From NCBI RefSeq assembly GCF_001306035.1, contig NZ_LGCM01000017.1:1-36069 (forward strand): DNA of 36,069 bases. The letters run 5' to 3'. Positions 14,973 through 24,730 of the stretch are shown in pieces. The DNA comes from Levilinea saccharolytica. Lineage in GTDB: Bacteria; Chloroflexota; Anaerolineae; Anaerolineales; Anaerolineaceae. Each line of letters opens with the position of its first letter. Within the stretch, counting starts at the first letter, position 1. A program made the position numbers and the translations under genes. The notes under the pieces were generated by a model that had not been told where the DNA came from, did not search any database, and saw only the letters and a list, made by a program, of their open reading frames with translations.

Positions 14973-14994
14973 ATCATGACATGCATATGCTTCC

Positions 14995-15110
14995 CTCATC
15001 TCCCAGAAGTCCGCCTCGTTGGGCTGCTTCTGCCGGAATTGGCACCTACAATCGCACGATTGTGGTTGCCGAGGTTTCACAGGGCCGATCCCTCCACCTC
15101 TCTGGATGAG
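14995..15110 (-). promoter_or_regulatory. SAM-I (S-box) riboswitch controlling metH
   Basis: Read on the minus strand from 15110, the consensus elements appear in order. P1 5' strand is CTCATC, followed by AGAGAGGTGGAGGGA, GGCCC, and GAAACCTCGGCAACC forming P2 and the kink-turn/pseudoknot region. P3 is ACAATCG-TG-CGATTGT, then GGTGCCAATTCC, a P4 hairpin and P1 3' strand GATGAG (15000-14995). All core SAM-contact segments of the S-box are present. A terminator follows 22 nt later and then metH, so the expected logic is high SAM, terminator formed, operon off. Confidence 0.97.
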
Positions 15111-15143
15111 TGGGCGTTGAACGCCCAGGATTAATTTCTACCC

Positions 15144-15287: not shown

Positions 15288-15683
15288 ATGCTGCCTTTAA
15301 GTCCGTTTATTCTTGCCGGTTTCTTGTTGGCAATCGTCGGTTGGGGAGGGGTGGCGGTGTTGGTTTTTTTCACCTTGCCCACCCTGGGGCCGCGCTGGCT
15401 GTTTATGCTTTTCCTACTGCAAGCCCTCAGCGGAACCGTGATGCCGTTGATTGCGCTGATTCACCGCCGCTTTGCGGGCAAGTACGGCGTCGAGGGGACG
15501 GTGATCGTGCGCCAGGCGATTTGGGTGGGGGTGTACGGCGACATTCTGGTGTGGCTGATGATGGGGCGTGTGATGACCACCCAGATGGCTGTTTTTTTAG
15601 GATTGGGGTTTGTCTTAATTGAATTTTTCCTGCGAATGCGGGAGCGCAGCCACTTCCAGCCCGGGGTTCCAGAGAATGAGTGA
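15288..15683 (+). CDS. Small four-helix membrane protein of unknown function
   Basis: A 131-residue protein with four hydrophobic segments (about residues 5-28, 38-58, 73-93 and 98-112) separated by short loops; a basic HRRFAGKYG loop follows helix 2. The tail is charged and soluble. I do not recognise a family or motif. AGGAG is 10 nt upstream of ATG 15288. Its last 8 nt overlap the selA start (ATG 15676), and selA in turn overlaps the M24 peptidase, so the three are probably one transcript. That linkage does not by itself say what the protein does. Confidence 0.75.
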   Translation: MLPLSPFILAGFLLAIVGWGGVAVLVFFTLPTLGPRWLFMLFLLQALSGTVMPLIALIHRRFAGKYGVEGTVIVRQAIWVGVYGDILVWLMMGRVMTTQMAVFLGLGFVLIEFFLRMRERSHFQPGVPENE

Positions 15684-17067
15684 TTTGCGCGAGCTGCCAT
15701 CGGTGGACCAACTGCTGCAAACCCGCACAGCAGCAGAGCTGGTGGCGGGGTACGGACGCGGGCTGACGCTGCGCGCTATCCGCGAGACGCTGGCGCAGGT
15801 GCGGATTGAATTTCAGGCAGGGGGGACTATTCCACAGGGGACTTTACTGCTGGAACGGGTGAGGATGCGGCTGGAGAGCTGGCTGGCTCCGACCCTGATG
15901 GCTGTGATCAACGCCACAGGGGTTGTGCTGCACACCAATTTGGGACGCGCGCCGCTGAGCCGCGAGGCGGTGCGGGCTGTGCAGGTGGTAGGCGGGGGCT
16001 ATTCGACCCTGGAGTTTGACCTGCCCAAAGGCAGCCGGGGATCGCGCAGCGTGCATGCGGAAGCCCTGCTGAAGTTATTAACCGGCGCCGAGGCGGCCCT
16101 GGTGGTGAACAACAACGCGGCGGCTGTGCTGCTGGCGCTGAGCGCTTTGGCCAAAGGCAAGCGGGTGGTGATTGCGCGCAATCAATTGGTGGAAATCGGC
16201 GGTGGCTTTCGCGTGCCGGATGTGATGCGCCAGTCGGGGGCCAAACTTGTAGAGGTGGGCACCACCAACCGGGTGCATTTGCGGGACTACGAGGATGCGC
16301 TGGATGGACAGCCCGCGGCGGTGGTGATGCGCGCACATTCATCCAATTTTCGCATTATCGGCTTCACCAGCGAGCCGGAGTTTAAGGATATTGTCCAGAC
16401 CGCGCATGGCCGCGGGGCCGTGGTTTTGGATGACCTGGGTTCAGGAACTTTCCTGGACACGGCGCGTTTTGGATTGGCGCATGAACCCACTATTCAAGAA
16501 GCGATGGAGGCTGGTGCGGATCTGATTTGTTTTTCGGGGGATAAGCTGTTGGGCGGTCCGCAAGCTGGCATTGTGGTGGGAAAAGCCGAACTGGTGGCAA
16601 AAATAAAGAAACACCCGTTGGCGCGGGCTGTGCGGGCCGATAAGCTGTGCCTGAGCGCGCTGAGCGCCACGCTGACGCATTACCTGCGCGATGAGGCCGA
16701 ACGGGAGATCCCTGTGTGGCAGATGATCGGTTACACGCCAGAGGCGCTGCGTGCGCGCGCCCTACGGTGGGTGGAAGAAACCGGTCATGGTGAGGTGCTG
16801 TCCGGGGAGTCCACCGTGGGTGGGGGCAGTTTGCCGGAGGAAACCCTGCCGACTTATCTGTATGCGCTTGCCGTGCGGCAGCCGGGGAAATTTTTGGCGC
16901 GCCTGCGCAAAACCAACCCGCCCATCATCGCCCGTATCCAGGAAGATCGGGTGGTTTTTGACCCTCGCACGGTGCTGCCGGATCAAGAAGGGGCTTTTTT
17001 GGTCGGACTAAAAAATGTTCTGAACGAATTTAAATCCCAACTCAACCACGATAGGAGCGCAACATGA
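15676..17067 (+). CDS. selA: L-seryl-tRNA(Sec) selenium transferase SelA
   Basis: A PLP enzyme that converts seryl-tRNA(Sec) to selenocysteyl-tRNA(Sec) with selenophosphate. ATG 15676 starts MSDLRELPSVD, the family-type N-terminus (463 residues; E. coli enzyme 463). Visible motifs: INATGVVLHTNLGRAPLS (about 78-95), VVNNNAAAVLL, the acidic VVLDDLGSG stretch, and the PLP lysine in SGDKLLGGPQAG (Lys290, E. coli Lys295). It overlaps the small membrane protein by 8 nt and the M24 gene by 4 nt. No selB, selD or tRNA(Sec) is visible in the window, so the rest of the pathway must lie elsewhere if the gene is active. Confidence 0.93.
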   Translation: MSDLRELPSVDQLLQTRTAAELVAGYGRGLTLRAIRETLAQVRIEFQAGGTIPQGTLLLERVRMRLESWLAPTLMAVINATGVVLHTNLGRAPLSREAVRAVQVVGGGYSTLEFDLPKGSRGSRSVHAEALLKLLTGAEAALVVNNNAAAVLLALSALAKGKRVVIARNQLVEIGGGFRVPDVMRQSGAKLVEVGTTNRVHLRDYEDALDGQPAAVVMRAHSSNFRIIGFTSEPEFKDIVQTAHGRGAVVLDDLGSGTFLDTARFGLAHEPTIQEAMEAGADLICFSGDKLLGGPQAGIVVGKAELVAKIKKHPLARAVRADKLCLSALSATLTHYLRDEAEREIPVWQMIGYTPEALRARALRWVEETGHGEVLSGESTVGGGSLPEETLPTYLYALAVRQPGKFLARLRKTNPPIIARIQEDRVVFDPRTVLPDQEGAFLVGLKNVLNEFKSQLNHDRSAT

Positions 17068-19413: not shown

Positions 19414-19470
19414 GCCGGGCGGTCTGTCACTTTTTTCGAACTAAGATCATCAAACAAGGTAGAACGCTGG

Positions 19471-20079
19471 ATGAATGAAGCGCCTTTATCATTGGAAGCT
19501 CTGCGCGCGGGAGACCGGGCCGAATTTGCGCGAATGGTGGCGCAGTATTCGCCGCAGGTGTACCGGCTGGGGCTGAAGATCACCGCGGACGAGCAGGATG
19601 CTGAAGATGTGCTTCAGGAAACGTTCGTGAGGGCGATGAAGGCCCTGCCGGGATTTGAAGGACGCTCCAGTCTGGCTACCTGGCTGTTCCGGATTGCCAC
19701 CAACGAGGCTTTGATGGTGCTGCGGCGTAAGAAACCGCAAGTGACTTTGGTGGAAGAGACTGGCGACGCGGACGAAGAAGAAGGCGTTCCGCACCCGCAG
19801 CAGATTGTGGACTGGTGCTGCCTGCCGGAAGCCGAGATGCTCTCCAGCGAAACCAAGGCCGAGATGGATCGGGCGGCGGCGGGGCTTTCACCAGCCCTGC
19901 GTTCGGTATTTGTGCTGCGCGATTTGCAGGGCTTGTCGGTGCGCGAGACGGCTGAGGTTCTGGGCGTGGCGGAGGCGGTGGTGAAGACGAGGTTGGTGCG
20001 GGCGCGGCTGAAGCTGCGCGAGGCGCTTTCGGCTTATTTTGGCGAGCGGATGCAGAAGGTGAGCGCGGATGAAGAATAA
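19471..20079 (+). CDS. ECF-type sigma-70 factor
   Basis: A 202-residue alternative sigma factor with only regions 2 and 4. Region 2 spans about 14-88, including DAEDVLQETFVRAMKAL and the promoter-melting SSLATWLFRIATNEAL segment. An acidic linker (EETGDADEEE) and a Cys pair (DWCCLPE) follow. Region 4 spans about 133-185 (LSPALRSVFVLRDLQGLS, then the helix-turn-helix VAEAVVKTRLVRARLKLRE). AAGG lies about 13 nt before ATG. The 3' end overlaps the zinc anti-sigma gene by 11 nt, the usual sign of a cognate pair. Target promoters unknown. Confidence 0.93.
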   Translation: MNEAPLSLEALRAGDRAEFARMVAQYSPQVYRLGLKITADEQDAEDVLQETFVRAMKALPGFEGRSSLATWLFRIATNEALMVLRRKKPQVTLVEETGDADEEEGVPHPQQIVDWCCLPEAEMLSSETKAEMDRAAAGLSPALRSVFVLRDLQGLSVRETAEVLGVAEAVVKTRLVRARLKLREALSAYFGERMQKVSADEE

Positions 20080-20320
20080 GGGTCACTGCGAAGACTTGTT
20101 GGCTTCCCTCTCCGATTACGTGGACGGAACGCTGGACGGTCAATTGTGTGAGGCGTTGGAACAGCACCTCCAGAGCTGCCACAACTGCACCGTGGTGGTG
20201 AACACCTTGCGGCGGACGGTGGAGCTGTATCAGCAGGAGGAGCCGGATGCCATGCCTGAGGCGGTTCACCAGCGGCTGCTGCACCGCCTGCAATTGGACG
20301 ATTTTCTGCACGAAGGGTGA
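20069..20320 (+). CDS. RsrA-like zinc-binding anti-sigma factor
   Basis: An 83-residue soluble protein with no membrane helix. The ZAS motif is complete: Cys7, then 25 residues, His33-x3-Cys37-x2-Cys40. The spacing equals that of Streptomyces RsrA (Cys11, His37, Cys41, Cys44), whose zinc is lost on disulfide formation, releasing SigR. An extra Cys27 could take part in redox chemistry. Overlap with the sigma gene (20069-20079) indicates translational coupling and a binding pair. By family knowledge it would hold the sigma factor inactive in reduced cells; the redox role here is inference from the cysteine pattern and the thiol genes downstream. Confidence 0.85.
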   Translation: MKNKGHCEDLLASLSDYVDGTLDGQLCEALEQHLQSCHNCTVVVNTLRRTVELYQQEEPDAMPEAVHQRLLHRLQLDDFLHEG

Positions 20321-20326
20321 GCGGCA

Positions 20327-20518
20327 ATGTTCTGTGCGTTACCGAAGCCGGATCCGAAGAGCGAGGGGAAGAGCCAAAGCCCCAAAACCGAGGGCATTTC
20401 CGACCTCCGCGCAAAAAGCATTTGCCCACGCTGCGGTCAGGGCGTTCTGGATTACGATGGAACCCTGAACCTGATCTGCCCGGTTTGCGGGGTGGTGGAG
20501 GGCGGCTGTTTTACTTGA
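20327..20518 (+). CDS. Small zinc-ribbon protein
   Basis: 63 residues. The N-terminal 30 are polar and likely disordered (Pro, Lys, Ser). The C-terminal half is a zinc ribbon with CPRC, a spacer GQGVLDYDGTLNLI, and CPVC, ending in EGGCFT. ATG 20327 is 6 nt after the anti-sigma stop, with GGGTGAG upstream, so it is likely in the same transcript. Function unknown; the ribbon could bind RNA polymerase, nucleic acid or serve as a redox-sensitive zinc site. A longer reading in another frame (20317-20568) lacks the ribbon and is rejected. Confidence 0.65.
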   Translation: MFCALPKPDPKSEGKSQSPKTEGISDLRAKSICPRCGQGVLDYDGTLNLICPVCGVVEGGCFT

Positions 20519-20532
20519 TAAACTATGGTGCA

Positions 20533-20549
20533 CAGCCCCGGTGGGGCTG
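20533..20549 (+). other. GC-rich hairpin between zinc-ribbon and oxidoreductase genes
   Basis: CAGCCCC and GGGGCTG pair across a 3-nt loop. No T-run follows directly (GGATGATTTTG begins about 6 nt later), so it is at best a weak terminator. It may instead be an RNA-processing or stability element between co-transcribed genes. Confidence 0.45.
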
Positions 20550-20580
20550 CGAACGGATGATTTTGTGAGGAGAAGACGGG

Positions 20581-21255
20581 ATGAGCCAAATGTTGGATGC
20601 CAATTTGCGCAAGCAGTTGAGCCAGATTTTTGCCGCCCTGGACCGTGAAGTGGGCGTGGCTTTCTTTGGCAGCACGGAAGAGAATTGCTCGTATTGTGAG
20701 CAAACCCTGGACCTGTTGGAAGAGGTGACCGCCCTGTCGGACAAGGTGCACTTGAAGTCCTACGACATCAACGAGGATGCGAAAATTGCCGAGGGCTATC
20801 ATGTGGATAAGGCTCCGGGAATTGTGGTTGGTGAGATGCGCGGGGGCGAAATTGTCGATTTGGGGGTGCGCTTTGCGGGAATCCCCGGCGGGCATGAATT
20901 CACCAGCCTGGTGCGGAGTATCTTGATGGTTTCAGCGGCCGATTCGGGCTTGAGCGCGGAGACGCGAGAATTTTTGCAGCAGGTCAAATCGCCGGTGACT
21001 TTCCAGGTATTTGTGACCCCCACCTGTCCTTACTGCCCACAGGCGGTGGTGCTGGCGCACCAGTTTGCGATGGAAAACCCTCTGATTGAGGCGGAGATGG
21101 TGGAGGCGATGGAATTCCCGGATTTGTCGGATCAATACGGGGTTTCCGGCGTTCCGCACACCGTGATCAACGAAGGCGCAGGCGAGATTGTGGGCGCCGT
21201 GCCAGAAGCGCAGCTGCTGGCAAAACTTCAGCAGGTCATTGAAGACGAAATTTAA
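20581..21255 (+). CDS. Two-CxxC protein disulfide oxidoreductase (PDO, glutaredoxin-like)
   Basis: 224 residues made of two thioredoxin-fold units. The N-terminal unit has ENCSYCE (Cys36, Cys39) and the C-terminal unit has TCPYCPQ (Cys149, Cys152) followed by the cis-Pro loop SGVPHT. This is the architecture of the cytoplasmic PDO family typical of thermophilic archaea and some bacteria, able to reduce, oxidise or shuffle disulfides. AGGAG precedes ATG 20581 by about 8 nt. Its position behind an RsrA-type anti-sigma makes it a plausible member of a thiol-stress regulon. Confidence 0.88.
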   Translation: MSQMLDANLRKQLSQIFAALDREVGVAFFGSTEENCSYCEQTLDLLEEVTALSDKVHLKSYDINEDAKIAEGYHVDKAPGIVVGEMRGGEIVDLGVRFAGIPGGHEFTSLVRSILMVSAADSGLSAETREFLQQVKSPVTFQVFVTPTCPYCPQAVVLAHQFAMENPLIEAEMVEAMEFPDLSDQYGVSGVPHTVINEGAGEIVGAVPEAQLLAKLQQVIEDEI

Positions 21256-21276
21256 CCCCATCAGGAGCGAAGAACC

Positions 21277-21702
21277 ATGGCGATGAAAGAAGGCAAGGTT
21301 ATTTGGAAACACGGGATGAGCTTCACCGGTTCGGGTCAGTCAGGTTTTGAGCTGCCCATTGGAACCGCGCCAGAGTTTGGGGGCGACAATGACGGCTTCA
21401 GTCCAATGGAATTGATCCTGATCGGCATGGCAGGCTGCACGGCTTTGGATGTGATGGCGATTTTGAAGAAAAAAGAACAGGATGTGACTGGTTTTGAGGT
21501 GGTGGCGCGGGGTGAACGTGCCGAAAGCCACCCGCGGGTGTACACCCATGTGCAGGTAGAATACATCGTCACGGGGCGAAATGTGCAGCGCGAAGCCGTG
21601 GAACGGGCCGTGGAGCTTTCGGAGACGAAGTACTGCTCGGTGCAAGCCATGATCAGCAAGACGGCCAAGATTGAATCGGTGATCACCCTGCGCGAAGCGT
21701 AA
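21277..21702 (+). CDS. OsmC/Ohr-family protein
   Basis: 141 residues, the usual OsmC length. Two conserved cysteines are in place: Cys54 (MAGCTALDVM) and Cys120 (TKYCSVQAM). In Ohr/OsmC enzymes this pair reduces organic hydroperoxides with thiol donors. The YhfA-like subgroup shares the fold but differs in activity, and the sequence (SPMELILIGMAGC, KYCSVQ) leans to that subgroup. AGGAG is 9 nt before ATG 21277; 21 nt separate it from the oxidoreductase gene, so they are likely co-transcribed. A terminator follows at 21723. Confidence 0.88.
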   Translation: MAMKEGKVIWKHGMSFTGSGQSGFELPIGTAPEFGGDNDGFSPMELILIGMAGCTALDVMAILKKKEQDVTGFEVVARGERAESHPRVYTHVQVEYIVTGRNVQREAVERAVELSETKYCSVQAMISKTAKIESVITLREA

Positions 21703-21779: not shown

Positions 21780-22976
21780 ATGAAAAATCTACGCTTACTG
21801 TTCTTAATCGTATTGTTGGGGTTGGTCATCGCGGTGACATGGATGGGGGTGCGTGTGATGATTGGCACGCAGCCGGCCGCGGCTGCAAGCGAAGGGGAAA
21901 CCGCCGTGACACAGACGGTTGAGGTGGAAAAAGTGCCAACGATTCAAGCGAGCGTCAGCCCGCCGTATTCGCCCAGACTGGCCTGGTTCTATAAACCGCC
22001 CAAGGACGGCGATCTGGCTAAGATCGCCCAGAACTTTGATTTCTTCGTCCTGACAGGAGGGGATGAGGCGGAGCGAGAACGAATGCGGGAGGCGGGGGCG
22101 CAGGGATTCTTTTTGCAATATCTGCGCTTTGACGCGATTCTGGATATGGAAGACTGCCAGAAGCGCCCGTATCAGAATCAGGTGGCCAACCAGCCGGGAG
22201 ATTTCTGTTGGATTGCACAGGAGCACCCGGACTGGTTTTTGCTGGACGGGAATGGGCAGAAGATGAAGAACGACGGCGGCTATGTGATGATGGACCCGGG
22301 AAACACTGGTTGGCAGGATTTTTGGCTGGAACGAGCGCAGATGGGGCAAGAAACAGGCGGTTGGGACGGCATTTTCCTGGATAATGTTGAGGCTAACCTG
22401 GATAAGCGCCGGCGGGTGGGCGCACTGCCGGAGCGTTACCCGGATGAGGAAAGCTACCGGCAGGCGGTACTAGGCTTTTTGAAGCGCATTTATGAGACCT
22501 ACACTCGCCCCAATCACCGCCCGCTGTATGCGAATGTGTTGGATGTGGACAGCGCAGAAGAGCTGATGCCTTTTTTGGGGGCATTGGATGGGGTGATGGT
22601 GGAGAGCTTTGCGGTGGATTGGCAGGACGGCTATCACAGCCGGGAGACCTGGGAAAAAGAAATGCAGATGGTGGAAAGCGCGCAGCGCATGGGCAAACAA
22701 TTGATTTTGGTGGCCCAGGGCCGCCAAATGGATTTCGCCCGGCAGGAATTTTCGCTGGCGTCTGCCATCCTGGCGGATTTGGGCGGGGTCACATTCCGCT
22801 ACACGTACCACGAGGAATACACCACCGCCTGGCTGTATGATAATTACAGGGTGGAACTGGGCGGGGCTTTGGGCGAACGCTACGCTGCGGCAGGGGGCTG
22901 GCGGCGGGATTTTGAACGGGGCAGCGTGATGGTGCAGCCAGAGGCTGGAACGGCGGAGATCCGCGTTCAGCCGTAA
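21780..22976 (+). CDS. Membrane-anchored putative glycoside hydrolase (GHL15-like)
   Basis: 398 residues. An N-terminal signal anchor (about 4-24) is followed by a Ala/Glu/Thr-rich stalk, then a TIM-barrel-like domain from about 60 to 375. The pattern matches the hypothetical glycosyl hydrolase family 15 (Pfam GHL15): LAWFYKPP, FFLQYLRFD, a DWFLLDGNG strand, WDGIFLDNVE at 195-204 and DGVMVESF at 270-277. Asp201 or Glu204 and Glu275, at strand ends, are candidate catalytic acids. The protein probably acts outside the cell on a polysaccharide; substrate unknown. Its 3' neighbour (23-nt gap) is an asparagine-synthase-like protein, and both converge on the exopolysaccharide operon. Confidence 0.75.
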   Translation: MKNLRLLFLIVLLGLVIAVTWMGVRVMIGTQPAAAASEGETAVTQTVEVEKVPTIQASVSPPYSPRLAWFYKPPKDGDLAKIAQNFDFFVLTGGDEAERERMREAGAQGFFLQYLRFDAILDMEDCQKRPYQNQVANQPGDFCWIAQEHPDWFLLDGNGQKMKNDGGYVMMDPGNTGWQDFWLERAQMGQETGGWDGIFLDNVEANLDKRRRVGALPERYPDEESYRQAVLGFLKRIYETYTRPNHRPLYANVLDVDSAEELMPFLGALDGVMVESFAVDWQDGYHSRETWEKEMQMVESAQRMGKQLILVAQGRQMDFARQEFSLASAILADLGGVTFRYTYHEEYTTAWLYDNYRVELGGALGERYAAAGGWRRDFERGSVMVQPEAGTAEIRVQP

Positions 22977-22999: not shown

Positions 23000-24730
23000 A
23001 TGGCCAGGGTGACGTACGTGGTGGTTCGGTCGGAAGAAGACCTGCCGATGGCGGAAAGCCGCCTGCAAAGGCTGGCGGGCAGGCTGAAGATGGATCATTT
23101 ACCGGATACCCCGGCTTTGATTGTGCGCAGCGGTAGGCGCATGGGGGCGGTGTATCAAAACAGCCCGGCGGTCAACGTGAACGGTGCCAGTATTTGCCTG
23201 GGACTGACTGAAAACGGTGAGGCGTGGTGGGAACCTGGAAAAGCCCTGGACGGTTCTTTTGCCATCTTCCGGGAAACGGAGACGGGGGTGGAGATTGTGA
23301 CCGACGCGCTGGCCAGCCGCACGGTTTGGACGGCGCAAAATGATCGTTTTTTCATCGCGTCCACTTCTCAGCGGGCGATTGTGGCCTTTTTGGAAAGCTT
23401 TGTGCTGAACCGTCAGGCGATGGCCTGGATGCTGTCTTCCGGCACGTTGGGGCCAGGGCACAGTTGGGATGAGCGCATTCAGCATTTGCCTGGGGATTCA
23501 ACCCTGCGGTTTGACATGGAACGCTGGCAGGCGGAGGTGGATACTCGGCCGGTGCGCTTTACGGCGGCCCCGATATCGGACGCGGAACAGCGCAAGCGGT
23601 TGGCGGACGCGGTGGAAGCGGTGTTGAATCAACTGCACCCCGACCCGCGCTATTGGGTGCTGCCGCTTTCGGGCGGGGTGGACAGCCGCGCGCTGCTGTT
23701 GGGGATGGGGCTGCGTGAGAACCTGCCCTGCATCACCTGGGGCACCAAGGCGGCACTGCAGCAGCCGAAAAGCGATGCGGTGGTGGCCCGAAGGCTGACG
23801 GAACATTTTGGAATCCCTTTCCGCTATTTTCCGATGGAGATGGACGGCACAGTACACCCTGATTTGGTGCTGCGGCGCTTCTTGCAAGCGGGCGAGGGGC
23901 GCGTGGATCACATCCGCGGGTATCTGGACGGCTTTGCTACGTGGAAAACGCTTGTGGATGAGGGCATCACTGGTATTGTGCGCGGAGACGAGGCTTTTGG
24001 GGCGACGGCTGTTCCGCCCACGGGATACGAGGCGCGGCGGGCGATTGCCTGTATGATGCTGATGGATTACGGCAACCTGCCGCCTTGTCCGCCGGAGGAA
24101 CATTTGCAGCAGGCACTGCCAGAATGGCTGCAGCGGCGCCACCGTGAGTCCCTGGTCACGTGGCGAGACCGCCTGTTCCAGCAATTCCGTGTGCCGTATG
24201 AATTGGCGGCGCTGACGGACTTGAAAACCGCGTATGTTGAGGTGCTGAACCCCTTGCTGGCGGGGAGCATTCAGGAAGTGGTGCGCGAGATGCCGGATCA
24301 TTTGCGCACGCGCAAGAGGGTGTTTCGGGAACTGGTGGAAGCACAAAGCCCGAAGGTTCCGTTTGCTGCCCACCCCGCTGTGGAAACCGACCGAAATTTG
24401 CTGCGCTCGGCACGGATGGTGGAACTGCTGCGGGGAATCCTCAATCATGAGGCCGCCTTCCGGGTGCTGCCTCCCACCCTGCACGAATTTATTCTGGCTC
24501 ACCTGATGATTGATCGGAAAAAGCAGAAACGCAACTGGCGGATCATGCGGCTGCGGCGCTATTTGAAGCGCTTAACGGGGCCGATCATCACCGGTCTGCT
24601 GCAAAGAGGACGCCCGAAGGTGGATATGGACCCGAACCGGCTGGCGCTGCGCGGGGCGATTGTGGTGAAGATGGTGGAAATATTGGAAGAGGATGCCGTG
24701 TTCTTTGTGGGGGGCGAGGCAGCGCAATAA
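23000..24730 (+). CDS. Asparagine synthase-related protein without the glutaminase Cys
   Basis: 576 residues. GAGGAG lies 6 nt before ATG 23000. The C-terminal half carries the ATP-pyrophosphatase loop SGGVDSR (224-230), then WGTK and GIVRGDEAFG, as in the AsnB synthetase domain. The N-terminal part keeps traces of the Ntn glutaminase fold (DGSFAIF near 84-90, PGDSTLRFD near 164-172). However, it begins Met-Ala instead of Met-Cys, so it cannot use glutamine in the normal way. Such proteins in polysaccharide loci amidate sugar carboxylates or acyl groups; that role is inferred from context. Free asparagine synthesis is unlikely. The 3' end converges with the BcsB-like gene across a shared terminator. 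Confidence 0.82.
   Translation: MARVTYVVVRSEEDLPMAESRLQRLAGRLKMDHLPDTPALIVRSGRRMGAVYQNSPAVNVNGASICLGLTENGEAWWEPGKALDGSFAIFRETETGVEIVTDALASRTVWTAQNDRFFIASTSQRAIVAFLESFVLNRQAMAWMLSSGTLGPGHSWDERIQHLPGDSTLRFDMERWQAEVDTRPVRFTAAPISDAEQRKRLADAVEAVLNQLHPDPRYWVLPLSGGVDSRALLLGMGLRENLPCITWGTKAALQQPKSDAVVARRLTEHFGIPFRYFPMEMDGTVHPDLVLRRFLQAGEGRVDHIRGYLDGFATWKTLVDEGITGIVRGDEAFGATAVPPTGYEARRAIACMMLMDYGNLPPCPPEEHLQQALPEWLQRRHRESLVTWRDRLFQQFRVPYELAALTDLKTAYVEVLNPLLAGSIQEVVREMPDHLRTRKRVFRELVEAQSPKVPFAAHPAVETDRNLLRSARMVELLRGILNHEAAFRVLPPTLHEFILAHLMIDRKKQKRNWRIMRLRRYLKRLTGPIITGLLQRGRPKVDMDPNRLALRGAIVVKMVEILEEDAVFFVGGEAAQ

Follow-up and report, generated by a model that had tools for sequence, protein, structure and literature searches.

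A probable thiol-stress operon of Anaerolineae, predicted to encode a zinc ribbon that ends in selenocysteine

Does a cluster of five small genes in Levilinea saccharolytica (Chloroflexota, Anaerolineae) encode a redox switch of the SigR-RsrA kind, and what is the role of the zinc ribbon in its middle? The window, by which we mean the whole stretch of 36,069 nt analysed here, is an entire contig (NZ_LGCM01000017.1, our C25) of a 4.23-Mb genome. On its plus strand it carries an extracytoplasmic function (ECF) sigma factor (19471..20079, 202 aa; Sigma70_r2 1.6e-19, Sigma70_r4_2 2.3e-14), a predicted cytosolic zinc-binding anti-sigma factor of the zf-HC2 family (20069..20320, 83 aa), a zinc ribbon, a protein disulfide oxidoreductase (PDO) with two thioredoxin folds (20581..21255, 224 aa) and an OsmC-family protein (21277..21702, 141 aa). 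The original prediction had described these five open reading frames (ORFs) as a SigR-RsrA-like thiol-stress module, and profile matches agreed with the families it had assigned. The sigma and anti-sigma ORFs overlap by 11 bases. We consider it likely that the cluster is a self-inducing thiol-oxidative-stress circuit of Anaerolineae which includes a selenoprotein, and the prediction that the zinc ribbon is this selenoprotein, with selenocysteine (Sec) as its final residue, is strongly supported.

By ordinary gene calling the zinc-ribbon ORF spans 20327-20518 and encodes 63 aa. The last codon, a TGA (20516-20518), is directly followed by a TAA (20519-20521), and with the TGA decoded as Sec the ORF extends over 20327..20521 on the plus strand and the 64-aa product ends in ...EGGCFT-Sec. 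The original prediction placed a zinc-ribbon protein correctly at this site and missed the Sec; the protein very probably is one residue longer than was given there, with Sec last at 20516-20518. Among the first 17 loci, the terminal [x]T-TGA is followed by TAA, TAG or TGA and then by a hairpin. A sample of the class gave zinc-ribbon matches in 52 of 396 genomes. Leaving aside four with E 3e-4 to 9e-4 (G175, G256, G260 and G434), 48 loci were examined, three of them from genomes already seen, and 44 of these 48 carry the terminal TGA plus stop. L109, L110 and L112 appear to be zinc ribbons without relation to this family. From a scan of named genomes the best 80 of 85 matches were kept as loci, and TGA plus stop is present in 80/80, including L213, which the script passed over and which has TGA-TAA. 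Thermanaerothrix daxensis GNS-1, Bellilinea caldifistulae GOMI-1 and Ornatilinea apprima P3M-1 are among the named strains with a match. The scripts used on the first 17 and on 79 named loci required neither the TGA nor the second stop, and all have both; the script for the class loci required two stops in a row, which leaves L107, L109 and L110 outside the counts, and L112 was also left out. After removal of duplicates, TGA with an in-frame second stop was found in 116/116 zinc-ribbon copies, while control gene ends from the same loci have TGA in 44/99 and a stop directly after it in 2/99. Apart from one degenerate copy (L107), the in-frame UGA is conserved at a position where a stop codon would be free to vary. 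Three positions before Sec, many copies have Cys (CFTU in the window, a CxxU motif) and others have A, G, S, T or V, so a CxxU pair within the molecule is not a general feature.

The hairpin downstream was compared with the published model of the bacterial Sec insertion sequence (bSECIS; PMC13188914, which in the part consulted gives an energy limit of its own of -7.5 kcal/mol). In the window the hairpin CAGCCCC-GGT-GGGGCTG (20533..20549, plus strand) fits this model at -12.1 kcal/mol. At ≤ -3 kcal/mol a bSECIS was found in 53/58 loci, compared to 128/1160 shuffles, 13/99 control ends and 9/25 Cys sites of PDO genes; at -7.5 kcal/mol the figures are 31/58, 30/1160, 7/99 (six of them ends of OsmC genes) and 2/25, respectively. 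The five loci that lack a bSECIS at -3 kcal/mol keep a CGTG loop on an imperfect stem. The named set fits the model in 78/79 cases at any energy and in 77/79 at ≤ -3 kcal/mol. With the loop left unconstrained, 105/115 distinct sequences have a loop of the G[G/U] type in their best simple hairpin, starting 16-23 nt past the TGA, as opposed to 77/2300 dinucleotide shuffles and 1/99 control gene ends. In a fixed register all four inner pairs are kept in 108/115 sequences (71/2300 shuffles, 4/99 control ends), and the inner stem pairs vary among several types across the sequences.

A second protein of the same loci shows a related pattern. In 6/31 PDO loci (L046, L049, L050, L055, L056, L061) the C-terminal CxxC of PDO has a TGA at the first Cys (TPT-U-P[Y/H]C, giving UPYC or UPHC) together with a bSECIS, and all six have a CGTG loop 17 nt past the UGA; the PDO of the window is the Cys form.

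Could the TGA of the zinc ribbon nevertheless simply end the ORF, with the hairpin serving the downstream genes as a terminator, attenuator or translational element? Hairpins after stop codons are common in operons, and 6/23 OsmC gene ends also fit bSECIS at -7.5 kcal/mol. Against this stand the invariant TGA and second stop, the bSECIS-type loop that shuffles and control ends rarely reproduce, the Sec-PDOs which share the loop at the same distance past their Sec codon, and the lack of a T-run directly after the window hairpin; we regard an ordinary stop as having only a very remote chance of being correct. Several observations do weigh against Sec. Among the class loci and the 80 named loci (weak class and phylum matches being unread) we found no homologue with Cys in place of Sec, as the ordinary-stop explanation would have it; such homologues are not required of all selenoprotein families. 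L107 is a zinc-ribbon homologue without TGA at the site; it has also lost one zinc Cys, keeps the hairpin and comes from a metagenome-assembled genome of 84% completeness, and from its sequence it looks decayed, by decay proper or by assembly error. As to the decoding machinery, the genome of the window has selA (15619..17067, plus strand, upstream of the module, SelA 434 bits, start codon tentative), selB (307.8 bits) and tRNA-Sec (75.7 bits), and all 17 genomes with a module zinc ribbon have tRNA-Sec at >60 bits and/or selB over cut-off. However, selB is over cut-off in 47/61 genomes of the group, and because such machinery is common there its co-occurrence alone is weak evidence. G025 has no good tRNA-Sec match and G036 (75% complete) no full selB. 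Two genomes, G046 and G048, have neither selB over cut-off nor tRNA-Sec at >60 bits (the best match in G048, 47.6 bits, is just above Rfam's 47); they keep sigma, anti-sigma and PDO, and no zinc ribbon is found there.

The zinc ribbon gave no match over cut-off in Pfam or, with six proteins tested, in NCBIfam. Membership in NF041197 was considered and rejected, with no match over the cut-off of that model in 41 genomes. In a sample of the phylum 30/400 genomes matched, 21 of them in the class; the nine outside it are weak (E 1.1e-4 to 8.3e-4) and unread. The fold model is of modest confidence (mean predicted local distance difference test, pLDDT, 76.3) and in Foldseek no match reached E 0.001; zinc ribbons are among the weak matches, which adds little. 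KCU-star, UXX-star, SaoC Cys-Cys-COOH and the dual CXXC proteins of NF041197 are likewise small, and some have by name Sec at or near the end, but among the small or C-terminal-Sec selenoproteins in the catalogued part consulted, compared by name, no entry carries a name that denotes a zinc ribbon ending in [x]T-Sec. Neither the table of the 2026 catalogue nor the open-access literature searched contains such a selenoprotein family, as far as the portions consulted go. The terminal-Sec zinc ribbon appears to be an undescribed selenoprotein family.

The five-gene set is an operon conserved in Anaerolineae. PDO was searched in the genomes of 61 relatives and is present in 30. The 31 PDO loci consist of 30 fetched stretches plus the window, and in L062 they include the second copy found in G031. 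Upstream of PDO on the same strand, 24/31 loci have sigma and anti-sigma genes, and OsmC is found downstream in 24/31. L049 has the anti-sigma gene alone, at a contig end, and in L037 sigma and anti-sigma are on the opposite strand. The commonest gene order is selA-pepM24-tsaD-sigma-anti-sigma-zinc ribbon-PDO-OsmC; in the window, too, selA, an M24 peptidase gene and tsaD precede the five module genes. In the nearest relative, G001, the module proteins are 73-96% identical to those of the window and the anti-sigma stop is slightly shifted. Taking the zinc ribbon as reference, we found within ≤3.5 kb on the same strand OsmC in 68, sigma in 56, anti-sigma in 56 and PDO in 46 of 79 named loci; contig ends truncate some of these. 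Elsewhere in the class, in other families, the zinc ribbon precedes OsmC or PDO and the fetched stretch contains no sigma or anti-sigma gene, and in three genomes (L054, L056, L172) the zinc ribbon is fused in frame to the C-terminus of the anti-sigma factor.

Sigma relatives 42-100% identical to the window protein are present in 39/61 genomes (E 1e-35). The anti-sigma factor scores 38.6 bits with zf-HC2 (PF13490, cut-off 22.2) and has the spacing C7-x25-H33-x3-C37-x2-C40 of a predicted CHCC zinc site, just as the original prediction had claimed for RsrA; a fifth conserved residue, Cys27, had been overlooked there. C7, C27, H33, C37 and C40 are invariant in 58/58 alignable anti-sigma loci of the named collection and in a 22-row alignment. 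A Pfam match covering as many residues of the protein as of the profile had raised the possibility that this spacing is a generic zf-HC2 feature, which was weakened by a control with the 30 best-scoring zf-HC2 loci of relatives (four gave no match to the script): the N-terminal Cys is present in 12/12 module proteins, 2/11 others and 3/3 borderline cases, and the equivalent of Cys27 in 12/12, 0/11 and 1/3. Borderline loci are those beside more distant sigma relatives, and one of the 11 others, L310, looks wrong-frame. Since borderline anti-sigma factors have Cys27 in just 1/3 cases, this residue is by sequence a marker of the close module and not of the wider group. The most hydrophobic 19-residue stretch past the zinc site contains 10-12 apolar residues in module proteins and 15-19 in 9/11 others; by this comparison with the 11 other zf-HC2 proteins the anti-sigma factor has no membrane helix, in line with the original prediction. 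Searched as a profile against the PDB, it finds RsrA best (5frf, E 2.4e-5) and RsiW next (9.2e-5). The fold model again is modest (mean pLDDT 67.9), with no Foldseek match at E 0.001 or better; RslA and RsiW occur among seven weak matches, which adds little. In the window, read-through at the TGA of the anti-sigma gene would lead in frame into the zinc ribbon, but judged by eye this TGA has no SECIS-like hairpin. The anti-sigma gene of L035 is interrupted by an in-frame TAA and is intact otherwise.

Upstream of the sigma gene we found a shared promoter motif, TGTAACyTTTT ... gCATCTAA, with 16 or 17 nt from GTAAC to CATC. In the window it consists of a -35 element GTCAC (19426-19430), a 17-nt spacer and a -10 element CATCAAA (19426..19454 in total, plus strand); it matches the strict pattern and scores 18.4 with a position weight matrix that was trained on the 33 of 66 sigma upstream regions that fit the seed. 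Scores of at least 10.6 were obtained for 64/66 regions, while one base-shuffle of each gave a maximum of 9.2. The motif is repeated between anti-sigma and zinc ribbon or PDO in 19/25 loci; it is missing from loci in which the anti-sigma gene is fused to the zinc ribbon or comes close to touching it (window, L033, L054, L056), and from two others, L045 and L049, in which PDO follows after a short gap. In 49/66 loci the CATC of the -10 element lies 6 or 7 nt ahead of the start-codon A chosen for sigma (23 nt in the window), and the sigma mRNA may be leaderless in most relatives. In L080, L081, L194, L214-L216 and L222 the zinc ribbon-OsmC genes are preceded by a promoter-like motif that has diverged (GTAATTNTTT-like, followed by CTTC-like) and ends 203-210 nt before the TGA; a diverged sigma factor of that family may read it.

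Across 12 genomes the strict pattern gave 35 matches, compared to one for the reversed control. The genes 3' of these sites, assigned by Pfam for 20 proteins and by likeness for the remainder, comprise 8 in the module, 3 trxB, 2 trxA, 4 grx, 6 second OsmC genes, 3 genes for YgaP-type membrane proteins (YgaP-TM; in 2 of 3 cases with a thioredoxin-domain gene next), 2 TlpA/redoxin-like genes, and one each for a rhodanese, an FAD oxidoreductase and a DHO_dh-like protein, with 4 sites having no plausible target. The strict sites of the window genome are the module, YgaP-TM plus thioredoxin and a TlpA-like gene, and its trxB has a promoter site scoring 19.0. trxB carries the motif in 11/12 and trxA in 2/12 of the first-tested genomes, so control of both by the sigma factor is predicted from the promoter motif. 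The threshold for trxB was set at 10.3 from 250-nt reversed windows (their 99.9% point), with 340 nt scanned; the motif was found in 16/20 sigma-positive compared to 2/15 sigma-negative genomes (no match at E 1e-35), Fisher p = 1.3e-4. This count leaves out G055, whose gene is truncated by the contig, G028 and G058, which gave no trxB match at the threshold, and the six second trxB-like copies. The predicted target set is what one would expect a thiol-stress regulon to contain. It supports the module that the original prediction had proposed with evidence which that prediction did not have: the motif of the sigma gene stands 5' of thiol-redox genes (trxB, trxA, grx, OsmC, PDO). The idea that PDO takes the place of thioredoxin did not hold up: the trxB motif in the window genome and in most sigma-positive relatives tested speaks against it, and PDO is predicted to add to the thioredoxin system.

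How close is the module to its actinobacterial counterparts? Like SigR-RsrA of Streptomyces and SigH-RshA of Mycobacterium and Corynebacterium it pairs an ECF sigma factor with a small CHCC zinc anti-sigma factor, and it shares with them an autoregulation motif and a trxB/trxA-type regulon (PMC4960319, PMC3489674, in the parts consulted). It differs in score, with 34.9 bits for the anti-sigma factor in the RsrA model TIGR03988 (cut-off 62.5) and 76.2 bits for the sigma factor in SigH_actino, TIGR02947, far below the cut-off of 251.55; the best family model for the sigma factor, PRK11922, gives 157.7 bits and is also under its cut-off of 204. It differs further in the promoter, which is GGGAAT-16-GTT for SigR/SigH according to the consulted part of PMC3489674, where trxB/trxC are placed under SigH control in actinobacteria. 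The sections of PMC4960319 consulted call Cys31 of RsrA, the equivalent of the Cys27 conserved here, non-essential; they regard an N-terminal zinc Cys as the simplest explanation of disulfide sensing, as CHCC proteins sense, in contrast to the HHCC proteins ChrR and RsiW, although RslA confounds the comparison. Judged by sequence, the module probably works like SigR-RsrA without being a member by family model, and it has another promoter. What is new relative to SigR-RsrA is that the operon itself carries a PDO, an OsmC and the predicted terminal-Sec zinc ribbon.

Both effectors match their families well. PDO scores 266.3 bits with TIGR02187 (cut-off 185), a family whose solved relatives include 1j08 and 1a8l, and has the two CxxC motifs named in the original prediction (CSYC and CPYC). 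Sec members of this family are already listed as a predicted selenoprotein family in the consulted part of the 2026 catalogue; here the protein stands in an operon with an ECF/anti-sigma pair. In L054, L056 and L057 the N-terminal CxxC of PDO is lost. The OsmC-family protein scores 67.4 bits with PF02566 (cut-off 27.5) and has Cys54 and Cys120; it is a predicted peroxidase.

Some observations count against the circuit as we read it. An internal promoter is absent from the window by matrix scan, Cys27 is missing in 2/3 of the anti-sigma factors that adjoin more distant sigma relatives, trxB has no motif in the sigma-positive genomes G009, G042 and G048 and one below threshold (8.5) in G008, the motif is found on 0/6 second trxB-like copies, and two sigma-negative genomes of one genus have it on trxB. 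The last point would suit a different ECF sigma factor that reads the motif and has the module sigma as merely one target, which we hold to be very unlikely given that the trxB motif tracks the sigma gene and that autoregulation is usual for ECF sigma factors. That the module senses another signal, such as a metal, heat or an electrophile, with the redox genes as a by-product, is conceivable in that zf-HC2 anti-sigma factors serve many signals and ours falls short of the RsrA cut-off; since most predicted targets are thiol/disulfide enzymes or OsmC, and the CHCC site plus Cys27 is invariant in the module, we consider this unlikely.

For the role of the zinc ribbon a relay deserves a hearing, in which the Sec zinc ribbon would act as an oxidant sensor and pass the oxidation on to the anti-sigma factor, much as Gpx3/Orp1 relays oxidation to Yap1, rather than serve OsmC and PDO. 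The in-frame fusions to the anti-sigma factor and the sigma and anti-sigma genes close upstream in 56/79 named loci speak for such a selenium relay. On the other hand, many zinc ribbons stand beside OsmC or PDO without a sigma/anti-sigma pair, which argues against sensing as the sole role, and some pairs (e.g. L034, L045, L052) lack an adjoining zinc-ribbon match; the relay seems to us rather doubtful. Because the zinc ribbon adjoins OsmC or PDO also where sigma and anti-sigma are missing, a redox partner of OsmC and PDO is ranked above a sensor for the anti-sigma factor, which the fusions keep in play. From this gene linkage we give about even chances to the zinc ribbon being a highly reactive electron partner dedicated to OsmC and PDO.

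Other features of the window are a S-adenosylmethionine (SAM) riboswitch on the minus strand (14993-15112, 88.6 bits) and, 3' of the operon, a GHL15 glycosyl-hydrolase-like gene (21780-22976) and an asparagine-synthase-like gene (23000-24730) with weak likeness to macrolactam cyclases.

In the circuit we propose, the zinc-loaded anti-sigma factor would hold the ECF sigma factor in the reduced cell. Thiol oxidation would, by analogy with the chemistry of RsrA, form a disulfide of C7 with C37 or C40, or perhaps involve C27, upon which zinc would leave and sigma be freed. From the promoter sites, free sigma is predicted to transcribe its own operon together with trxB; in some genomes its targets would further include trxA, grx, a second OsmC and genes of the TlpA/YgaP type. 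PDO and the thioredoxin system would then reduce disulfides, probably including that of the anti-sigma factor, and so close the loop, while OsmC would remove peroxides. More tentatively, as a possibility below even chances, the terminal-Sec zinc ribbon may react first with peroxide and then either oxidise the anti-sigma factor, turning the switch on, or, together with PDO, reduce it and turn the switch off, in which case selenium supply and Sec decoding would set the gain of the response.

The RsrA-type redox switch, best known from Actinobacteria, would thereby be extended to a class of mostly uncultured Chloroflexota, together with a promoter and a testable regulon. With Sec as the last residue, taking the TGA for a stop in gene calling shortens the product by a single amino acid and leaves no visible sign of error. 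If such a redox operon, with its sigma/anti-sigma pair, does encode a selenoprotein, the tuning of bacterial redox signalling by selenium becomes open to direct experiment.

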